From Nitrospinota bacterium (lineage in GTDB: Bacteria > Nitrospinota > Nitrospinia > JACRGO01), in NCBI GenBank assembly GCA_016212295.1, contig JACRGO010000192.1:1-37170 (forward strand): DNA of 37,170 bases, given 5' to 3'. The notes beneath the pieces are model-generated. The model made no database searches. It was not told where the DNA came from and saw only the letters and a list, made by a program, of their open reading frames with translations. Positions 3,405 through 30,908 of this stretch are shown here, one piece after another; position 1 is the stretch's first letter; the number at the start of each line of letters is the position of its first letter. A program made the translations under genes and the position numbers.

Positions 3405-4340
3405 TCATACGATCTGGGTGAGCTTTCTGAGGGTTTCGATGGTTTCTTCTATCGTGTTTTCCTGGTCCACCGTGAATTGCTTGAATTCCACTCCAAACGA
3501 GCTTGGAAAAATAATCTTTACCGTGCCGGTGAAGGGAAAAACCTTCCCGCCTTTCAGACAGAGTTCGCCGGAAATTGCGTTGCCCTCATGCAAATTCTCC
3601 TTTATTTTTTCCGGGAGATTATATACATTCAGCCTTACTCCTCCTTGGGAAATGTCTTTAACGTTCACGGTTTTTCCATCTATTTTGGTAAAGCAAAGGC
3701 TGGGATCAGTAACTGATACGCGTAGATGTTTTCTTTTCGGGTGAAGGTCCCGTGTCTTGTCCTGGAGGGCCATGTCCTCAAGCAGTTTATTTGGAACTAT
3801 TTCCGCTTCACTTTTTTCTTCAAGGGACTTCCTTGTCCTGTTAATTTCCAATTCCTTTTGCCGCAAGTTGTCTATCAAGGTAATAATTTTTTGATTGTCC
3901 TCATTGATTTTATTTCCCAGGCACAGAATTATATTCCGGTGGATTTTGTGGCTCAGTTTTGGATCGGTCACGAACATGGAATCGAATTTCGACTGGACTA
4001 TGGTGAGGATGATCGTATTGTTATCGGAGGCCCTTACCGTGGCATTTCTTGGCATGCCTGTAAAAAGTCCGATTTCTCCGATCAACGCAGGTGACGGGAG
4101 TGAGAAAATCTTCTTGTCAGCCTTGAAAATATCCACTCCTCCGGACAACAGAATAGCCATGAAAAAGCTGTGGTCCCCTTCATTGAAGAGCGCCTCGTCT
4201 TTTTTGAGTTCCTTATAGTCACAATGGATTATGAATTTGCCCAACTCATTGACAGGTATGCCTTGAAACAGGATGATGTTTTTTATGGTTTCGGCATGGT
4301 CCTTGATTATTTTTTTAAAATCTTCCGCTTTTGTCGACAT
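3405..4340 (-). CDS. Cyclic-nucleotide-binding domain plus PilZ domain protein
   Basis: The 311-residue protein has an N-terminal CRP-type cNMP-binding domain (about 20-140), with the phosphate-binding cassette GEIGLFTGMPRNATV at 88-102 including the key Arg98. A charged linker helix follows (about 150-190). A C-terminal PilZ domain has R203xxxR207 and D229xSxxG, the two c-di-GMP-binding motifs. No DNA-binding helix-turn-helix is present, so it probably works as a dual nucleotide sensor rather than a transcription factor. GGAGAG lies about 9 nt before the ATG at 4340, and a TATAAT-like sequence lies upstream near 4380. It is monocistronic. With 28251-29030 and 29412-30908 it forms a dispersed c-di-GMP set. 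Confidence 0.9.
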   Translation of the reverse strand: MSTKAEDFKKIIKDHAETIKNIILFQGIPVNELGKFIIHCDYKELKKDEALFNEGDHSFFMAILLSGGVDIFKADKKIFSLPSPALIGEIGLFTGMPRNATVRASDNNTIILTIVQSKFDSMFVTDPKLSHKIHRNIILCLGNKINEDNQKIITLIDNLRQKELEINRTRKSLEEKSEAEIVPNKLLEDMALQDKTRDLHPKRKHLRVSVTDPSLCFTKIDGKTVNVKDISQGGVRLNVYNLPEKIKENLHEGNAISGELCLKGGKVFPFTGTVKIIFPSSFGVEFKQFTVDQENTIEETIETLRKLTQIV

Positions 4341-7225: not shown

Positions 7226-7254
7226 TTAATAAATACAAAGAATTCCCGTATAAT
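7226..7254 (+). promoter_or_regulatory. Predicted promoter of the zinc-ribbon/FliL-like gene
   Basis: A perfect TATAAT (7249-7254) lies 17 nt after TTAATA (7226-7231, 4 of 6 matches to TTGACA). The ATG is at 7313, giving a leader of about 50 nt. Confidence 0.45.
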
Positions 7255-7312: not shown

Positions 7313-10003
7313 ATGAAGATTCAATGCCCAAAATGTAAATCTAAATATTCAGCCAAGCTGGACTCCATTCCGGAGAAAGGCCAAAAACTGGAATGCGCGA
7401 CCTGCAACCATGTATTTCTCGTCCGCAAAAAGCAGGGGAGCATAGACAGGACACTGGCCGCCTTGAAGGACCAGTTTAGTTCCTGGGACTCCAAAATGGC
7501 CTCAGTGGAAGAGGACCAGTTCACAAAAGACCTCCTCAATGGCGAAGCGGGCCACGGCTTCACGGAAACTAGTAGCGAAGACCTAAACCGCTTTCTGGAA
7601 GAAGCGGACATGGCCGAAAAGTTCCCGGAGGCACTGGGAACGGGTTTATCGATGCCTGGAACCGAAAACGGGACGTTAAAGAATCTGGCGGATGAACTCA
7701 GCAGCCAACGGACGGAAAAATTCCCTGAGGTTTCCGATGCGATGTTCGATGACCTGTTCGAGGAGGTGGAATCCCGCGACCTTATTGAGCAAGGCCCGGA
7801 CGGAATTCTTGATGAAAAATCCGGCCTTGAGGAAGAACCTGGTTCAGGAGTGTCAGGAATCCAGGAACCGCCGGAGGAAGATCTCGATAATCTGTTCGAT
7901 GTCCTGATGGAAGAAAGCGGTGAAGCGCCCCCCAAGAAATCAATGGCCGCGGCAGCGATAGAGGATATGGCCTCAGGTCTTGAGGATTTATTTGACGACA
8001 TTCCCACTGCTGAAAATGTTATAGAACCCGTTGCCGCCGAGGGGAAAGGCGTGTTATCAGGCGAGAAGGCAGAAGGCGCGGCAGGCGATACAGGGGAAGC
8101 CCCTTTTATTATGGAATCTTCCGCGTTGAAGGACCTGGATTCGGCGTTCGACGAGATGTTCGGTGAAGATGTTGGCGCGGTTGTTTCCAAACCATCTCAG
8201 CAATTGGAGCCGGCGCCGGGAGGCATGGATGGTTTGGAGGGTCTCTCTGATTTGGTTCAGGACTTATCCACGGCGGAGCCGGCGGAGGGGGACTTCAGCT
8301 CTCTTGATGACTTATTTGAGGAACCGGCGCCTGCCCGGGAATCAGGCCAGGGAGGAGACCTGATAGACCAATTAATGGAAGAATCCGGGACGGGGACCGC
8401 TGACGAAGACGCGGACACGAAAATGCTGCAAACCCCTCCGCCTCCCGGCACCACCGCGCCTGATGCGGAGCCCAAGTATCAGAGCGAGGAAGACCTTTGG
8501 TCCGAGGCATTGGAAGAACAAGCTTCCACCGAGAAGCCTCAAGCCGGGCAGGGGGAATCCGAGGAGGACCTCTGGGCGGCCGCCTTGAATGAACAAAAAG
8601 CCGCGGCCGCGCAGCCTGGCGAGGATGAAAAAACAAAGGCGGCCGTTTCCGCTATTTCATCCACGCATGAGGATGAAACAACGGCTGTGGGGGGCATCAG
8701 CCAGTCGGATTTAGACCAATTATTTTCCCAGGCCGCGGGCGAAGATAGCGGCGTCCAGGACACCGGAACACAACCAACGAAGCCTCAAGGCCAGACCGAG
8801 ATTATCAGCCAGGACGAGTTGGACAAGCTTTGGGGAGCCGCGGTAACAGAGCAGAGCGGCCCAGGAGAAGTAAAGGAAGGCGCGGGACCCACTGGAGAGG
8901 TGGAGGATTTATGGAACGCCGCTCTACAGGAGCAGGCTGGCGGCGGGCAGCAAGAGGAAGCCAGGAAGCCTTCCGGGGGCGGCGTAATTTCCCAGGAGGA
9001 GTTGGACGGACTTTTCGCCAAGGCGACGGAAGGGGGAGCCGCCGAGCCGGAAAAAGAGGAGCCAGCCGAGGACTTGACCTCTCAAACCGAGGTTTTCGCG
9101 GCAGGTGAAGAAAAAACCGAATTGATTGCCGATGGAGCGGTCCAAGAAAAGGAAGAGGCCGCGCATGGCGAGCATGGTGAGTTTGAAATTGACGATGAAC
9201 TTCTTGCCGGGAAAAAATCCTTTAAGGAAAAGCTGGCCGGGCTCCTTGCCTTCAAATTCCTGCCTGCTGAAGGGAAAAAACGCTACGCGGTCCTTGGAGC
9301 CATGCTGCTCTCTTTAGTCGGAGTACTGGGAGGCGGTGGATATTTTGCCTATAACCATTTCACGGGTCTAAAAACCGCCATAAAAGAAGCGGACAAGCCG
9401 GACATGGAGGCAAGGGCGAAGAAGGAAGAACGCCGCGCGGAGAGGGCGGCAAAGGAAATACCGGCTGAAACTCCCTCACAACCAGAGGAACACGCAAAGG
9501 AAACCCCGGCAACGCCAGTGTCGCCGCAAGCCCCTTCAACTCCTCAGCCGGAGCAGACAACTCCCCAGGCGCCCATCGGAGAAAAAAATACCCTGGAGGT
9601 CGGGCTTATCCTTCCCATACAATTCAGCCCCATGGAGACAAAGGTCCTGCAAGCGGACTTCGTGTTCGAGATGAGGGACCACAAGGCGTACGAGCAGTTG
9701 AAATTTTATTTGCCCATCTTCCAGGACCTGATGGAAAAAATCACAAATGAATTTTTAAGCCAGGATTTTTATAATGAAATTCATTACGCAAAGGAGAAGC
9801 TCAAGGACAGGCTGATGGAAAACTTCAACGAAAGGATGAAGGGGGACTGGGTAAAAAACGTTTTTGTGAAGAACTTTGTCATTGATATCAAGAAGAAGGA
9901 AGAGGCCGATAAGAAAAAAGAAGCTGCCGCGAAACATGGCGAGGAGGAGAAGCATGAAGAGAGGAAGGATGAAGGGACGAAACATGAGGAAAAGAAGCAC
10001 TAA
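7313..10003 (+). CDS. MJ0042 zinc-ribbon protein with acidic repeats, TM helix and FliL-like C-terminal domain
   Basis: The 896-residue protein starts with an MJ0042-type zinc ribbon (Cys5, Cys8, Cys28, Cys31). Residues about 60-640 are acidic, low-complexity and rich in short motifs: LDDLFEE-like units in the first half, EEDLWxxALxEQ units (three), and SQxxLDxLF/W units near 462, 499 and 560. The SQxELDxL motif resembles the FliM/FliY N-terminal SQxEIDALL peptide. One transmembrane helix lies at about 657-682, then a Pro/Glu linker. A conserved-looking domain at about 759-866 has the FliL pattern (a leading strand, long helices, a VKNVFVKNFVID end strand). A His/Glu/Lys-rich tail closes it. 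Expected topology is N-terminus in the cytoplasm and FliL-like domain outside. Fusion of these parts is unusual; no flagellar genes are nearby. Confidence 0.8.
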   Translation: MKIQCPKCKSKYSAKLDSIPEKGQKLECATCNHVFLVRKKQGSIDRTLAALKDQFSSWDSKMASVEEDQFTKDLLNGEAGHGFTETSSEDLNRFLEEADMAEKFPEALGTGLSMPGTENGTLKNLADELSSQRTEKFPEVSDAMFDDLFEEVESRDLIEQGPDGILDEKSGLEEEPGSGVSGIQEPPEEDLDNLFDVLMEESGEAPPKKSMAAAAIEDMASGLEDLFDDIPTAENVIEPVAAEGKGVLSGEKAEGAAGDTGEAPFIMESSALKDLDSAFDEMFGEDVGAVVSKPSQQLEPAPGGMDGLEGLSDLVQDLSTAEPAEGDFSSLDDLFEEPAPARESGQGGDLIDQLMEESGTGTADEDADTKMLQTPPPPGTTAPDAEPKYQSEEDLWSEALEEQASTEKPQAGQGESEEDLWAAALNEQKAAAAQPGEDEKTKAAVSAISSTHEDETTAVGGISQSDLDQLFSQAAGEDSGVQDTGTQPTKPQGQTEIISQDELDKLWGAAVTEQSGPGEVKEGAGPTGEVEDLWNAALQEQAGGGQQEEARKPSGGGVISQEELDGLFAKATEGGAAEPEKEEPAEDLTSQTEVFAAGEEKTELIADGAVQEKEEAAHGEHGEFEIDDELLAGKKSFKEKLAGLLAFKFLPAEGKKRYAVLGAMLLSLVGVLGGGGYFAYNHFTGLKTAIKEADKPDMEARAKKEERRAERAAKEIPAETPSQPEEHAKETPATPVSPQAPSTPQPEQTTPQAPIGEKNTLEVGLILPIQFSPMETKVLQADFVFEMRDHKAYEQLKFYLPIFQDLMEKITNEFLSQDFYNEIHYAKEKLKDRLMENFNERMKGDWVKNVFVKNFVIDIKKKEEADKKKEAAAKHGEEEKHEERKDEGTKHEEKKH

Positions 10004-22121: not shown

Positions 22122-22553
22122 TCACTGTCCGCCGCGAACGCACCGGACATGGAAGTAGAGTGACTTATCGTTGTAGTAGGTGTTGCCATTGCGGAAATAG
22201 ACGTGCCACGCGAGGGACGTGCTGGACGCGTAGGTGGTGCTTGACCAATAGTTGGACGAATTCACATTGGGGAAATAAACAGTGTCAATGGCGGGGTTGT
22301 TTTTGTCATAATTCACAATGGACACGAGTTCCTTTTTGTCCGGCAGCCGCCAGTCGAACTTTCCGGCAAGTCCGAGGCCCTCGCAATAGGATATGGCGGA
22401 CTTCCAGGCCATTGCGCCCCCTTCGGTCTTCTGCCATGTAAGCCCGGTGTAAGTGTCCGTTACCGTGTAGTTTCCATAGTCCAGGAAGTTTCCGGCAAAG
22501 GCGTCGGCCATTGCCAGAAACGCGGCCAAGATAAAGAATACCCGCTTTTTCAT
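22122..22553 (-). CDS. DUF1566 (Lcl C-terminal-like) exported protein
   Basis: The 143-residue protein has a signal peptide (MKKRVFFILAAFLAMADAFA). It has a single DUF1566 domain with TGLTWQKTEGGAMAWKSAISYC, WRLPDKKEL and NYWSSTTYA, and ends in HVRCVRGGQ. This fold is related to C-type-lectin/FGE-like exported domains and is often found on the cell surface; function is unknown. GAGGAGG 8 nt before ATG 22553 supports the start. The next minus-strand gene upstream is an FGE-fold protein with a similar C-terminal FRCV ending, but repeats separate them. Confidence 0.85.
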   Translation of the reverse strand: MKKRVFFILAAFLAMADAFAGNFLDYGNYTVTDTYTGLTWQKTEGGAMAWKSAISYCEGLGLAGKFDWRLPDKKELVSIVNYDKNNPAIDTVYFPNVNSSNYWSSTTYASSTSLAWHVYFRNGNTYYNDKSLYFHVRCVRGGQ

Positions 22554-22955: not shown

Positions 22956-24275
22956 TTAAAAATGCGAAAAATAAGCGCCGTTAAATTTCAAAAGCTTTTG
23001 CCCGGATTTCGTAATTTTAAACTCGCCTATTCTATTTTTTAATACCCTCTTAATGTTTTGGGCACTGCTACCCTGCACATCTTTCACACAACGAAAACCT
23101 GTAACATCGTTGTAACCCCTAGGAGGAAGCTCAAAAACCCGCGCACCTGATTTCAAGAGGTAACTAAAATAATCATCTTTACTTCCTTGATAACCGGTAA
23201 CCTCAGAATAATAATCATAAGAACCATTCCACCAATCACCTCCTTTTTCGATCATCGCATCATTTTTTTTATCAGAAGTCAATTCAAGAACATTCCCGGC
23301 CAGATCATGCGCCCCATAAGGCGAAACCCCAGCGGGATAACTGCCCACGGGAACCGTATCACCGACCTGCATTCCATAGTTCGCCTTACTGGCGTCAGGC
23401 GCTTCGTTTCCCCAAGGATAAGCGCGACCATCGGTACCCCGAGCGGCTTTTTCCCATTCTGTCTCCGTCGGCAATCTTTTCCCTTGCGCTTGGCAAGCTG
23501 GAACAGCTTGCCACTCATAACTTACATTAACCACCGGATGCTCGGCATAATCGGGATCAAGATAACGACCAACTTTTTCTCCATTTTTTCCTCCATTCGC
23601 TCCAACCTGGGAGATAAGAACATCTAGAGGCATACCACCAGCGCTTATAAATGCGTCAGACTGGGCAATAGCGCTGAACTTGCCATTCGTCATTTCATAT
23701 TTATCCATACAATAAGCCCCGGTAGCCGCCGTATGTAAAGGATTATCCGCCTCTTCTCCACCCATCAAAAAATCGCCAGCAGGGACAAATACCATCTCTT
23801 CGGGACAAACCGATCCCACTCCCTGCACTGTAAATTTCCAGTTTGTTCCGACAACTTTCAGTGGATTACCATCTAGCGACACTATCAATTCCACTATCCG
23901 GGTTTCTCCGTCAAACAAACCCAACTCCGGTATTTCCACGGTCACAACCGCTCTTTTTGAGCCTATCATTGACACTTCCTTGATTGTGCCTTTAGTATCC
24001 CAGAATTCTACCGTTACCTGTCTTCTGGCAACTTTTTTTGCCAACTTTCGCAAATAAATTTTTGCGCTGCTCCCTTCCTTTCCTTGGGTAGGACTAACCT
24101 TAAAAACTTCCGCTGTTGTTGATTCTGATTTCTTGCCTTCAGCGGCAGCCATGTCCGCGGCAAAACCATTGGCAAACAAGGCAAGGGCAAGGTAAACGGC
24201 CTTGCGATCAAGAACATTGAAACGTCCGCTTGTTTCTTGTTGAATGGCGGTGATGGCTGGTTTTTGCCTGGACAT
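22956..24275 (-). CDS. Exported FGE/SUMF1-fold protein with IPT-like N-terminal domain
   Basis: The 439-residue protein has an atypical signal-like hydrophobic stretch (about 27-45) and a beta-sandwich, IPT/TIG-like region (about 50-155). A formylglycine-generating-enzyme/sulfatase-modifying-factor domain (about 157-400) contains MVFVPAGDFLMGGEE, GKRLPTETEWEKAARG, YPWGNEAP, GAHDLAGNVLE and GFRCVKDV. The Cys pair of true FGE enzymes is not evident, so a non-catalytic or binding role is likely. The start at 24275 is fixed by AAAGGAGG 7 nt upstream. Codon use is more AT-rich than in the neighbours, hinting at transfer. A long leader with promoter and terminator-like hairpin lies upstream. Confidence 0.85.
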   Translation of the reverse strand: MSRQKPAITAIQQETSGRFNVLDRKAVYLALALFANGFAADMAAAEGKKSESTTAEVFKVSPTQGKEGSSAKIYLRKLAKKVARRQVTVEFWDTKGTIKEVSMIGSKRAVVTVEIPELGLFDGETRIVELIVSLDGNPLKVVGTNWKFTVQGVGSVCPEEMVFVPAGDFLMGGEEADNPLHTAATGAYCMDKYEMTNGKFSAIAQSDAFISAGGMPLDVLISQVGANGGKNGEKVGRYLDPDYAEHPVVNVSYEWQAVPACQAQGKRLPTETEWEKAARGTDGRAYPWGNEAPDASKANYGMQVGDTVPVGSYPAGVSPYGAHDLAGNVLELTSDKKNDAMIEKGGDWWNGSYDYYSEVTGYQGSKDDYFSYLLKSGARVFELPPRGYNDVTGFRCVKDVQGSSAQNIKRVLKNRIGEFKITKSGQKLLKFNGAYFSHF

Positions 24276-24303
24276 GGTGGGGCCTCCTTTGGTTGTTTTG
24301 GGT

Positions 24304-24325
24304 AGGGGCGAATAATGATTCGCCC
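24304..24325. repeat. GGGCGAAT/ATTCGCCC hairpin in the leader
   Basis: GGGGCGAATAATGATTCGCCC forms an 8-bp perfect stem with a 4-nt loop, about 30 nt before the FGE-like start codon. Just upstream on the coding strand is a run of GTTCCAACAGTTCCAG / GGTTGGAACGG imperfect repeats (24350-24400). Confidence 0.45.
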
Positions 24326-24431
24326 TTACTTCGGGTTTCGGGTTTAAAATTCGTTTCAACCGTTCCAACCGTTTAAACCGCTGGAACTGTTGGAACTGTT
24401 TTTTTTCTTCGCGCTCCTCGCGGCTGAAAGC

Positions 24432-24482
24432 CAAAAAATAAAAAAGCCCGTTTGACGCCTTATACAGGCTTTTCAAACGGGC
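24432..24482 (-). terminator. Intrinsic terminator-like hairpin in the leader of the FGE-like gene
   Basis: On the minus strand AAGCCCGTTTGA pairs with TCAAACGGGCTT (12 bp, perfect) around a 17-nt loop that holds a second small GCCT/AGGC pair. The stem is followed by TTTTTTATTTTTT. The orientation is that of the FGE-like gene, and it sits about 160-200 nt before that start codon. Confidence 0.65.
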
Positions 24483-24610
24483 TTCTGAACTTAAAACAAA
24501 AGAAAGAGTCAGGAAGAGATGTTTCGCGGAAGAAAAACGATAAGGGTAACGTACAGGGTATAGGCGCAGTGGAGAGGTTAGCGGGTAAATGGCAAGGGTA
24601 GAAATGCGGA

Positions 24611-24620
24611 GGGGGGGGGG
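24611..24620. repeat. Homopolymer tract of 10 G (10 C on the minus strand)
   Basis: Ten consecutive G residues. On the minus strand it lies in the leader of the FGE-like gene, within a frame that stays open from an ATG at 24641 into that gene. Such tracts slip during replication and can act as phase-variation switches. Confidence 0.6.
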
Positions 24621-24674
24621 ATTAACTCTTAAGGAATTCATAATGGATTTTTTTTAAAATTAAATGACCGCACT

Positions 24675-28126: not shown

Positions 28127-28253
28127 ATGGCCGCAACCAAAATAAATTTCTATGTATTCAAACGTTCGATGATATTATTCCATTTCCTTGTTTGCTATTA
28201 GTTTTGGTTATTGAGATTTATTTGTTATTTGGCAATTGAAATTTGAAGTTTCA
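28127..28253. repeat. GGCCGCAACCAAAATAAATTT element joined to AT-rich repeat
   Basis: AATGGCCGCAACCAAAATAAATTTC (28127-28150), then AACGTTCGATGATATTATTCC, matches 11864-11914. An AT-rich repeat follows (28181-28253: ATTTCCTTGTTTG, GGTTATTGAGATTTATTTG, TTATTTGGCAATTG, GAAGTTTCA). The last three bases of the repeat are the stop codon of the convergent receiver-PilZ gene. Confidence 0.75.
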
Positions 28254-29030
28254 CTCCAATGAGTCTGCCGCCGCTCCTCCATCCTTAAGCCTGTCAATAT
28301 CGGCCCTGGCCTTTTCAAAAATCCCTTCAAATATTTTCTTTTTGTTATCCGGCATTTCCATGAACTGCCAGCCTATGCGGATTTGCTCAGGCAGATTGCC
28401 GCCGGTGCTGGTCAATACATTCAGCCTCAGGAATTTGCACGGAATATTTCCTATTTCTATATTGGCGTATTCAGCCGGGAGCTCAATCGAAATATTAGGG
28501 GTCTTCATGAGCCTTACTATATACTCCTCCGAAAACTCCATGTCACAAAGCACGCCGCCCGCGCTGATGTTCACCACCTTGGCCTCCACCCTGCGCCCGT
28601 CAATGGAAATAAACGCCTTTGTGTCCGGTATGCTGATACGGTCATGTACCCGCTTTTTCACGGGATTGGACAGGGCGTTGATCCTTGCCGCAAGTTCCTT
28701 TGCGGTAAAGGGGGTAATCATGTAATGCTGGATCCCATGCGCCGCGAACTCGTGCAAGACCTCCTCCGACAGGGATGACGTCAAGACGAGGAAAGGGGTG
28801 TCCGTGTTCAGTGGAAATTCCCGGATTTTCTGGTAAAGGGCCGGGCCATCCATTCCCTGCATTTTGTTTCCGCAGATGGCCAAATCGAATTTTTCCTCCT
28901 TTAATCTCTGAAGGGCCTCTTGAGTGGAAGAGACGTCCATTGTAAGAACATCCGGGACCTCGGTGGAAATGTATCCCTTTAGAAGGTTTCGCAGTCCTCG
29001 AAACTCATGCACTATCATGATTTTTCTCAT
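28251..29030 (-). CDS. Pseudo-receiver domain fused to PilZ domain
   Basis: The 259-residue protein has a CheY-like receiver fold (1-118) followed by a PilZ domain (about 123-240). The receiver is degenerate: the phospho-acceptor Asp is Gly54 (in LAICGNKMQGMDG), the acidic pair is His8-Glu9, and the conserved Lys is Thr106 (MITPF). It therefore should not be phosphorylated in the usual way. The PilZ domain keeps R127xxxR131 and N154xSxxG, so c-di-GMP binding is expected. The start ATG 29030 with AGGAG upstream is preferred to a longer frame from 29162 that begins with non-domain sequence. It lies near the HD-GYP gene. Confidence 0.88.
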   Translation of the reverse strand: MRKIMIVHEFRGLRNLLKGYISTEVPDVLTMDVSSTQEALQRLKEEKFDLAICGNKMQGMDGPALYQKIREFPLNTDTPFLVLTSSLSEEVLHEFAAHGIQHYMITPFTAKELAARINALSNPVKKRVHDRISIPDTKAFISIDGRRVEAKVVNISAGGVLCDMEFSEEYIVRLMKTPNISIELPAEYANIEIGNIPCKFLRLNVLTSTGGNLPEQIRIGWQFMEMPDNKKKIFEGIFEKARADIDRLKDGGAAADSLE

Positions 29031-29071
29031 ACCTTTTCTCCTGAAATTCCCTATAAGGGATAATTGAACAA

Positions 29072-29097
29072 GGCGCGGCTGGGCCGCGACCAAAATC
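29072..29097. repeat. GGCGCGGC...GCCGCGACCAAAA hairpin repeat
   Basis: GGCGCGGCTGGGCCGCGACCAAAA: GCGCGGC pairs with GCCGCG. Same family as 34699-34722 and 36748-36775. It is followed by a tract of short AATCC/AAATGGCAAACAACAAATCC sequence up to about 29175. Confidence 0.55.
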
Positions 29098-29194
29098 AGA
29101 ATACCGGATATCGAAATACGAAACAAATCCGAATAACCAAAATCCCAAATGGCAAACAACAAATCCCAAAGAACTTAACGCCCTTCGGGCGGAC

Positions 29195-29411: not shown

Positions 29412-30908
29412 TTAATTCTTATTATCCAGGGTTTGTTTTCCCAGCATGGTGACAAAGTGTTTAAATATAACCTGGTCAAACTCCTCCGGCTGTTTTGAAA
29501 GCAGGCTTGCCGCCTCGAACGGCCTGAAAGCCTTTTTGTAGGAGCGCTCAGTTGTCAATGCGTCGTAAATATCCACAATGCATGAAATCCTTCCATAGAC
29601 GTGTATCTGCTCCTGCTCCAGGTTGCGGGGATAGCCCCTCCCGTTCAATTTTTCGTGGTGTTGCAACATGGGAATGAATATGCTTGGGGAAAGGTCCTGG
29701 TGTTCCCTCATAAGCTCCGCCCCCCATTCAACGTGTTTTTTCACCAGATCGAATTCCTGGTACGTCAGCTTCCCAGGCTTGTTAATGAGGTGGCTCGGCA
29801 CCCGGCTCTTCCCCACGTCGTGCATAATGGACCCAAGGGCCAGATTGAAAAGGTCCTTTTCCCTCATGCCCAGGGACATGGCCAGTCCTATGGAGAGGGT
29901 GCAGACATTTATGGAATGGACGTAGGTGTAATAGTCGTAGGTGTTGATCTTCATCAGACCGTAAAAGGAGGACGGAAGATTCAGTATGGCGTCAATCATT
30001 TCCGCGACCGTTTTTTTCGCCTCCTTCACCGCCTCCCCGCTGCGCGGATTTTCCAGCAGGTCCTTTGTGACCATTTTGGAGTTTTCCTTGACCACGGCAG
30101 CGCGCATCTTTACGACTGCCTCTGAATCCCCGGAGGATTTTTTCGCGGCCAACTCCCTTATGAAATTTCTGTATTTTTCATTGTCGTTGATATGGATCAG
30201 GAGATTTTTCCGCTTTTTCCCTTCCTCCTCTTTTCCGAAAACATCATCATCCGGGACCATCCTTTCGGCCTTGAGAATTAAACTTACGTCTGTGTGGTTT
30301 TCCAGATATAGATTGACAGGCGTCCTGGTCCCATGAACAAAGACTTCACGGTCCACCGGAATATAATTATCAAGATAGTCGATATAACGTTCGATTTTCT
30401 CCTCCGACTCAAATCCCTTGGAAAGCCCTTTATGGGACAACTCCCATTCCCTTTCCATCCCTTTTTCGTAAGAGTTGAAAAGGTCCCGTTGAGAGCAAGG
30501 TATGTATATCGTCTTGACGCGGTTGGATTCGAGGTAGTGGTTGACCTCGAAATGGAAGGGGAGGTTCTTGCGCAAGTATAGGAAGTGTTCTCCATCTTTT
30601 TTTATATACAGGTCAAAGGGCAGAACCGAATCCACCATGAGTTTGCCCGGCGGCGCCCCGAAAAATTCCGTGGGTTTTTTCTCCTGGATTTTTGGTTTTT
30701 CCTGTGTCCCATCCGCTTCCATGGCGTCCAGCCCCTTTTCAGTATTGATGTATACCTCCTCTATCCCGTATTCTTCCATTTTTTTAATCTCTTTTTCGGA
30801 AGCGATTTTGAACTTGTTGAAGAAAAAGGGGGTCATGAGCCAGCTTTGCTCAATTTTTTCCACATAGACTCCAATCCTGAGCTTTTTTACCGGGACCTTC
30901 TTAATCAT
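29412..30908 (-). CDS. HD-GYP domain cyclic-di-GMP phosphodiesterase with DUF3391
   Basis: The 498-residue cytoplasmic protein begins with a DUF3391-type domain (KKVPVKKLRIGVYV at 3-16). A middle region resembles a second, divergent PilZ-like or DUF3391-like segment. The HD-GYP domain (about 315-490) has HSINVCTLS, the metal-binding pair His363-Asp364 (HDVGK), HHEKLNGRGYP with the GYP motif near 425, and DIYDALTTERSY. HD-GYP enzymes hydrolyse c-di-GMP to GMP or pGpG. A TATAAT sits only 3 nt before the ATG, with no good -35 box and no ribosome site. It lies two genes from the cNMP/PilZ type of sensor in function though not in position. Confidence 0.93.
   Translation of the reverse strand: MIKKVPVKKLRIGVYVEKIEQSWLMTPFFFNKFKIASEKEIKKMEEYGIEEVYINTEKGLDAMEADGTQEKPKIQEKKPTEFFGAPPGKLMVDSVLPFDLYIKKDGEHFLYLRKNLPFHFEVNHYLESNRVKTIYIPCSQRDLFNSYEKGMEREWELSHKGLSKGFESEEKIERYIDYLDNYIPVDREVFVHGTRTPVNLYLENHTDVSLILKAERMVPDDDVFGKEEEGKKRKNLLIHINDNEKYRNFIRELAAKKSSGDSEAVVKMRAAVVKENSKMVTKDLLENPRSGEAVKEAKKTVAEMIDAILNLPSSFYGLMKINTYDYYTYVHSINVCTLSIGLAMSLGMREKDLFNLALGSIMHDVGKSRVPSHLINKPGKLTYQEFDLVKKHVEWGAELMREHQDLSPSIFIPMLQHHEKLNGRGYPRNLEQEQIHVYGRISCIVDIYDALTTERSYKKAFRPFEAASLLSKQPEEFDQVIFKHFVTMLGKQTLDNKN

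Follow-up and report, generated by a model that had tools for sequence, protein, structure and literature searches.

A zinc-ribbon protein family of the Nitrospinota with a FliL-type domain and repeated rotor-tail-like peptides, possibly an overlooked component or organiser of flagellar motors

The 896-residue protein described here is encoded in a 37,170-nucleotide stretch of DNA from a Nitrospinota bacterium (hereafter the window) and belongs to a conserved, so far unnamed protein family, which has a FliL domain and is not canonical FliL. It may have escaped notice as a component, or as an organiser, of the flagellar motor. Our favoured reading, to which we give roughly even chances, is that it represents an accessory flagellar protein of the phylum, a single-copy member of the FliL family whose tail carries docking peptides that imitate the tails of rotor proteins. 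Our literature search for a zinc-ribbon FliL protein retrieved no relevant report, and we know of no described counterpart of the tail.

Based on ORF reading, Pfam and NCBIfam searches and comparison with orthologues, a single ORF (7313-10003, + strand) codes for a protein that joins a zinc ribbon, an acidic tail, a transmembrane (TM) helix and a FliL-like domain, as the preliminary description had it. The N-terminal MJ0042-type zinc ribbon (residues 1-36; 7313..7420, +), with a CxxC-x19-CxxC pattern, matches both Pfam Zn_ribbon_4 (PF13717; E 4e-10) and NCBIfam MJ0042 (E 4e-8) over their cut-offs. The zinc-ribbon model matches 17 of the 18 full-length orthologues, and all four Cys residues are invariant among the 18. 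The acidic region that follows (residues ~61-638; 7493..9226, +), delineated by composition, contains 25% Asp and Glu and 6% Lys and Arg, with repeated acidic-hydrophobic motifs of the LDxLFD type. It is presumably disordered; in most orthologues the tails contain 24-51% Asp and Glu. Hydropathy and flanking charges predict a single TM helix (residues ~657-683; 9281..9361, +) with an N-in/C-out topology. As positive residues precede the TM helix in nearly all orthologues, its N side being the more positively charged in 18 of the 19 scored, we expect the tail to lie in the cytoplasm and the FliL domain in the periplasm, which is also the arrangement of FliL. A linker, the FliL-like domain (residues ~756-859) and a charged C-terminal end complete the protein, a layout that supports its earlier description as a membrane scaffold. 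A DUF3426-type zinc-ribbon membrane protein was also considered and rejected, since Pfam shows no match to the DUF3426 C-terminal domain in the protein or its orthologues.

The FliL match of the C-terminal domain (residues 756-859; 9578..9889, +), initially proposed from its layout, held up in sequence, profile and structure comparisons. Pfam FliL (PF03748) scored the window protein at 24.5 bits (E 4e-5), next to the cut-off of 24.6, and at 28.6 bits, over the cut-off, in the search of the genome. Several orthologues exceed the cut-off and 12 of the 18 full-length ones match at E <= 0.01, while the match of the window protein to NCBIfam FliL is weak. Using a family-only profile built from the 18 orthologous C-terminal domains, we searched 77 genomes and retrieved the family itself at E below 1e-34; the remaining matches were only short FliL proteins, i.e. 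canonical flagellar FliLs and other paralogues (E 1e-10 to 1e-3). The alignment of the family profile with that of FliL by hhalign gave a probability of 98.3 (E 1e-14). A sequence search of the PDB returned FliL of Helicobacter pylori (7sgn, E 2.8e-5) and of Campylobacter jejuni (9hmf, E 2.7e-4), with no other match up to E 1. AlphaFold2, run on the single window sequence without the orthologue alignment, modelled the domain as beta-beta-alpha-alpha-beta (pLDDT 80.8, pTM 0.70). The best eleven Foldseek matches of this model in the PDB are FliL structures (E down to 1.2e-5, TM-score up to 0.76, about 0.75 to 7sgn), followed by the SPFH domains of prohibitin and stomatin. By these sequence and model comparisons, the domain is of FliL type, with a predicted stomatin-like fold.

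Canonical flagellar FliL is a short protein of about 170-200 residues encoded beside fliM/fliN, and its cytoplasmic end is normally short. We rejected the window protein as a canonical FliL orthologue: it has 896 residues, its gene is unlinked, and the canonical FliL of the genome sits beside fliM on contig C97. As canonical FliL is also present, the window protein is not the main FliL of the motor. The genome also harbours a second short FliL paralogue of 207 residues outside the flagellar operon (L067, G000:C37, 7001-7621, -). A similar paralogue of 180-230 residues is found in most genomes of the phylum, and thus FliL-domain proteins often number three per genome.

The acidic tail carries two kinds of short peptides. 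The EEDLWxxALxEQ units, previously likened to FliM, match Pfam FliN_N (PF16973) instead, and thus resemble the N-terminal tail of proteobacterial FliN; they do so over its cut-off, with an E value of 3.2e-8 in three stretches: EEDLWSEALEEQ (residues 392-403; 8486..8521, +), EEDLWAAALNEQ (residues 417-428; 8561..8596, +) and VEDLWNAALQEQ (residues 530-541; 8900..8935, +). We therefore rejected the likening of these W units to FliM. The window protein is the sole FliN_N match in its own genome, and among 14 control genomes the model matches E. coli. It also matches 10 of the 18 full-length orthologues (best E 2.7e-15), and across the phylum most orthologues conserve and repeat the W unit, with one to seven copies per protein. 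The copy number is six in G031 (EDDLWAKAFAEQDELNEKM) and four in each of G048, G043 and G059; in G022 it can reach seven when SEEDAWAAAF variants are included. The orthologues of G004, G047 and G035 have no W motif. The window protein was not taken for a FliN, as FliN_N alone matches and the SpoA/FliMN_C domain (PF01052) gives no match in it. In the five FliN proteins that we read, from this genome and four relatives, the DLW unit is absent from the N-terminal ends. Our literature search on the FliN tail motif found no relevant report and no account of its binding partner.

The second kind of peptide contains an SQxE(I/V/L)DxL core, present in three copies identified by profile and matrix scoring: SQSDLDQLF (residues 463-471; 8699..8725, +), SQDELDKLW (residues 499-507; 8807..8833, +) and SQEELDGLF (residues 560-568; 8990..9016, +). 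With a profile that included FliM's own N-terminus, only these three copies and the FliM N-terminus (VLSQEEVDALLRG) rose above noise in the genome. When FliM was excluded from the matrix, its N-terminal peptide still ranked second, the three copies aside, of 71,456 15-mers drawn from a subset of loci in the same genome, which upholds the resemblance to FliM noted initially. The second SQ peptide continues as GAAVTEQ, making it a hybrid of the SQ and FliN_N-like types (SQDELDKLWGAAVTEQ). As it belongs to both types, the SQ and W peptides may represent two forms of a single docking helix. All four Trp residues of the acidic region fall inside W units or SQ peptides. In 20,000 composition-preserving shuffles of the sequence, the W motif occurred 0.0006 times on average and the SQ motif 0.00015 times, never more than once, compared with three observed copies of each.

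The two types of peptides differ in their distribution, so that the conservation of the repeats expected among orthologues was found across the phylum for the W units and at the genus level for the SQ peptides. The latter are confined to this genome and that of its congener G001 (SQDALDGLF, NQDELDNLW), with a single loose match outside the genus, SQEEMNKLL in G015. The congener orthologue (L042, 4214-10054) reaches 1946 residues because its acidic tail contains some ten repeats of one unit (LDSLFDEMPED ... LDDALDEMFEEE). A JAB/Mov34-like protein, so named by reading and encoded on the flagellar contig (L119, G000:C97:27478), starts with MEDSFISQKDLDRIFGHA and gives a weak SQ match (E 2), which is probably due to chance.

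The preliminary description had also pointed out that no flagellar genes are near. This is correct for the window, and for the orthologue loci that we read, and yet misleading, since the genome is that of a flagellate and the family tracks flagella. FliL, FliM, FliN, FlhA and FlhF are all encoded on contig C97, and the idea that the organism has no flagella was accordingly dropped. In the phylum sample of 77 genomes, all from one class, the family is present as a single copy in 57. The 18 full-length orthologues share the zinc-ribbon Cys residues and the domain core, with tails of widely varying length and overall protein sizes from 463 to 1946 residues. Outside the phylum, a full-protein scan of contigs detected only zinc-ribbon relatives with other C-terminal parts, namely receiver domains or integral membrane domains, and we thus found no close relative there.

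Flagellate status was scored by the presence of FliM and FlhA, or of FlhA alone for G060-G076. With kinship ignored and G002 counted as lacking the gene, 54 of 64 flagellates and 2 of 13 non-flagellates harbour it (Fisher's test, 3e-6). For genomes at least 80% complete, the gene is intact in 47/52 flagellates and 0/5 non-flagellates (p 6e-5, again with kinship ignored; p 0.0015 if the G002 remnant is counted as present), and at 90% completeness or above the numbers, then small, are 27/30 and 0/2 (p 0.02). The two genomes with an intact-looking gene and no FlhA, G061 and G068, are both incomplete (72% and 65%, respectively). Three further candidate exceptions were discarded: FlhA was found in both G039 and G052, which thus count as flagellates, and the match in G007 is a 239-residue protein with no FliL domain. 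In G002, which is 96% complete and lacks FliM and FlhA, the gene is reduced to 132 residues of the C-terminal domain; the zinc ribbon, the tail and the TM helix are missing. This remnant would represent decay of the gene following the loss of flagella, and we count it in favour of a flagellar role. Conversely, three flagellates at least 90% complete lack the gene. In G005, where it is missing, the flhA and fliL reading frames are interrupted, possibly reflecting a flagellar system in decay or assembly errors; G029 also lacks it, and has FliM with no FlhA or FliL match; G037, the third, has a zinc-ribbon fragment. The non-flagellates span at least four families, some of which are otherwise flagellate, making several independent losses likely. 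Nevertheless, the sample includes incomplete genomes and those of the non-flagellates tend to be small, so that general gene loss could mimic co-loss.

The genetic environment of the gene is not flagellar. In the window it is isolated, flanked by dxr/cdsA-type genes of the opposite strand and by coaBC. Its neighbourhood is conserved in three other families, with divergent genes for a FimV_N/SPOR protein, a small haem-motif lipoprotein and an SLT transglycosylase on one side and obg-rpmA-rplU, named by reading, on the other. M23-peptidase-like genes, also identified by reading, adjoin the orthologue in G001 and G043. In a consensus scan, the start codon proved to be preceded at a distance of 59 bases by a sigma-70-type promoter-like site, TTAATA-17-TATAAT (10/12 matches; 7226..7254, +). 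Sites of this quality are only slightly commoner here than in shuffled sequences; a TATAAT is also present upstream of the orthologue in several relatives. The upstream region shows neither a sigma-28 site nor a convincing sigma-54 site. The unlinked gene and its housekeeping-like promoters are the main facts that speak against a purely flagellar role.

Several other genes in these regions deserve mention. The conserved neighbour at L043 (4256-6256, -) joins FimV_N, an NTF2-like Cds6_C domain and SPOR, an unusual combination. The window also encodes a cNMP-binding plus PilZ protein (3405-4340, -), a receiver-domain protein (28251-29162, -) and an HD-GYP-type protein with DUF3391 and HD domains (29412-30908, -), which might be involved in c-di-GMP signalling. 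According to Pfam, an Lcl_C (DUF1566) gene and one for an FGE-sulfatase-like protein lie side by side in the window (22122-22553, - and 22956-24641, -), and by reading a second such pair is present in the genome (L066, 3340-5594).

In the reading that we favour, the FliL/stomatin-type domain would face the periplasm and, like that of FliL, probably assemble at the stator units, surrounding or flanking them, or at a different membrane complex within the basal body. The periplasmic domain of FliL is stomatin-like and forms rings of stator size (PMC6426602), and motor output is modulated by its N-terminal cytoplasmic plus TM region (PMC10127578). In the window family, the short cytoplasmic end of FliL would have grown to several hundred residues, zinc ribbon included, and this tail bears multiple short, presumably helical peptides that mimic the FliN tail throughout the phylum and the FliM tail in one genus. 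Being multivalent, the tail might serve as a docking strip where partners that recognise the tails of rotor proteins are concentrated at the membrane, thereby coupling rotor regulators to the stators or to the place where the motor is assembled. The candidate partners of the FliM-like peptides are CheY-P, which binds the FliM N-terminus (PMC7355467), and/or FlhG. As FlhG also docks on that N-terminus (PMC12826062), it may be considered a candidate equal to the receiver proteins first put forward.

For this interpretation we counted the FliL homology established by several routes, FliN_N matches over the cut-off, the FliM-like peptides, the co-occurrence with flagella, the decay of the gene in G002 and the state of the three near-complete flagellates that lack it (interrupted frames in G005, missing FlhA and FliL matches in G029, a gene fragment in G037). 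Against it stand the genus-level restriction of the SQ peptides, the three orthologues with no W motif, the presence of canonical FliL as well, and the two intact-looking genes in genomes lacking FlhA. A bolder version seems unlikely to us, namely that the family is a motor component throughout the phylum in which multiple copies of the FliN tail peptide sit on a FliL-family protein at the stator rather than on the rotor. This one membrane protein would both encircle the stator and rival or stand in for the docking tails of the rotor, forming a physical bridge from stator to rotor regulators. To our knowledge, no described flagellar motor has a bridge of that kind.

Placement at the stators is our best reading, with the cell pole as its rival. 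The protein might be a polar organiser, or landmark, like HubP/FimV, whose acidic repeat tail recruits FlhG/FlhF and pole proteins, the FliL-like domain serving only as an envelope anchor. HubP has one TM segment and an acidic, D/E-rich, repetitive cytosolic region (PMC8789113), as does the window protein; the FliM N-terminus mimicked in the tail is a docking site of FlhG (PMC12826062), FlhF is encoded in the genome, and the FimV_N/SPOR protein and SLT transglycosylase are conserved neighbours. However, those neighbours are divergent genes whose joint working with the family is putative, and the layout is reversed, the periplasmic part of HubP coming first. In Pfam and NCBIfam searches the window protein lacks LysM, TPR and the FimV C-terminal domain. 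Membership of HubP/FimV was rejected, with no LysM/FimV_N, TPR or FimV C-terminal match in the protein or its orthologues, and an organiser of that kind appears doubtful.

We judge improbable an envelope or cell-wall protein with no flagellar role, whose stomatin/FliL-type domain would serve another complex, e.g. an ExbBD-type motor or wall remodelling, with W motifs that bind a housekeeping partner and a convergent likeness to FliN. The transglycosylase, M23-peptidase-like and FimV_N/SPOR genes nearby, the sigma-70-like promoters, the five MotA/ExbB-family proteins of the genome and the gene's retention in two incomplete genomes without FlhA are consistent with that view. It is at odds with the tight distribution with flagella and decay after flagellar loss, with best structural matches to FliL rather than to general SPFH proteins, and with FliN_N matches that exceed a curated cut-off. 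A scaffold for gliding-type surface motility of the GltJ kind, with a small GTPase bound by the zinc ribbon and acidic region and an envelope motor engaged from the periplasmic side, is very improbable. NCBIfam GltJ matches 9/18 orthologues (best E 9e-12), but the window protein scores 17.3 bits against a cut-off of 450, its match ends at residue 136, and Pfam detects no GYF or TonB domain in the protein or its orthologues. Given a score so far below the NCBIfam cut-off, we rejected GltJ membership.

If the accessory FliL reading is correct, a whole phylum carries a flagellar protein that none of the curated models searched names. The family would then offer a route to the partner of the FliN N-terminal tail, since evolution would have isolated and repeated that very peptide. 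FliL, on the stator side, would be linked to the rotor-side peptides that receive CheY-P and FlhG, a link relevant to the coordination of stators, switching and flagellar placement.

Among known systems, GltJ of Myxococcus gliding shares an N-terminal MJ0042 zinc ribbon and an acidic region in a membrane protein, unlike the window family in having GYF and TonB domains, and its model scores the family far under the cut-off. HubP/FimV have in common with the family a single TM segment and a long, acidic, repetitive cytoplasmic region, whereas the family is devoid of LysM, TPR and FimV C-terminal domains and has a reversed topology and a FliL-like periplasmic domain. The FliN N-terminal tail, the FliN_N peptide of E. 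coli FliN, shares the EDDLWAxALxEQ peptide; in the window family this peptide is repeated and lies within a membrane protein, and the FliNs of the phylum that we read do without it. The FliM N-terminal CheY/FlhG-binding peptide (SQxEIDALL) shares an SQ-acidic-acidic-L-D-x-L core, the genome's own FliM being the best match, in contrast with the SQ peptides of the window protein, which are internal, present in three copies, end in Phe or Trp and are restricted to the genus. Lastly, FliL itself (H. pylori 7sgn, C. jejuni 9hmf, Vibrio-type 6ahq) has the same succession of a TM helix and a periplasmic stomatin-like beta-beta-alpha-alpha-beta domain, with sequence, profile and fold matches, and both proteins co-occur with flagella. 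The family is nevertheless only about 20% identical to FliL. It differs further in its added zinc ribbon and in the repeated peptides of its cytoplasmic tail, which measures ~200 to 1700 residues, and its gene is unlinked to flagellar operons and coexists with that of canonical FliL, often together with a third FliL paralogue.
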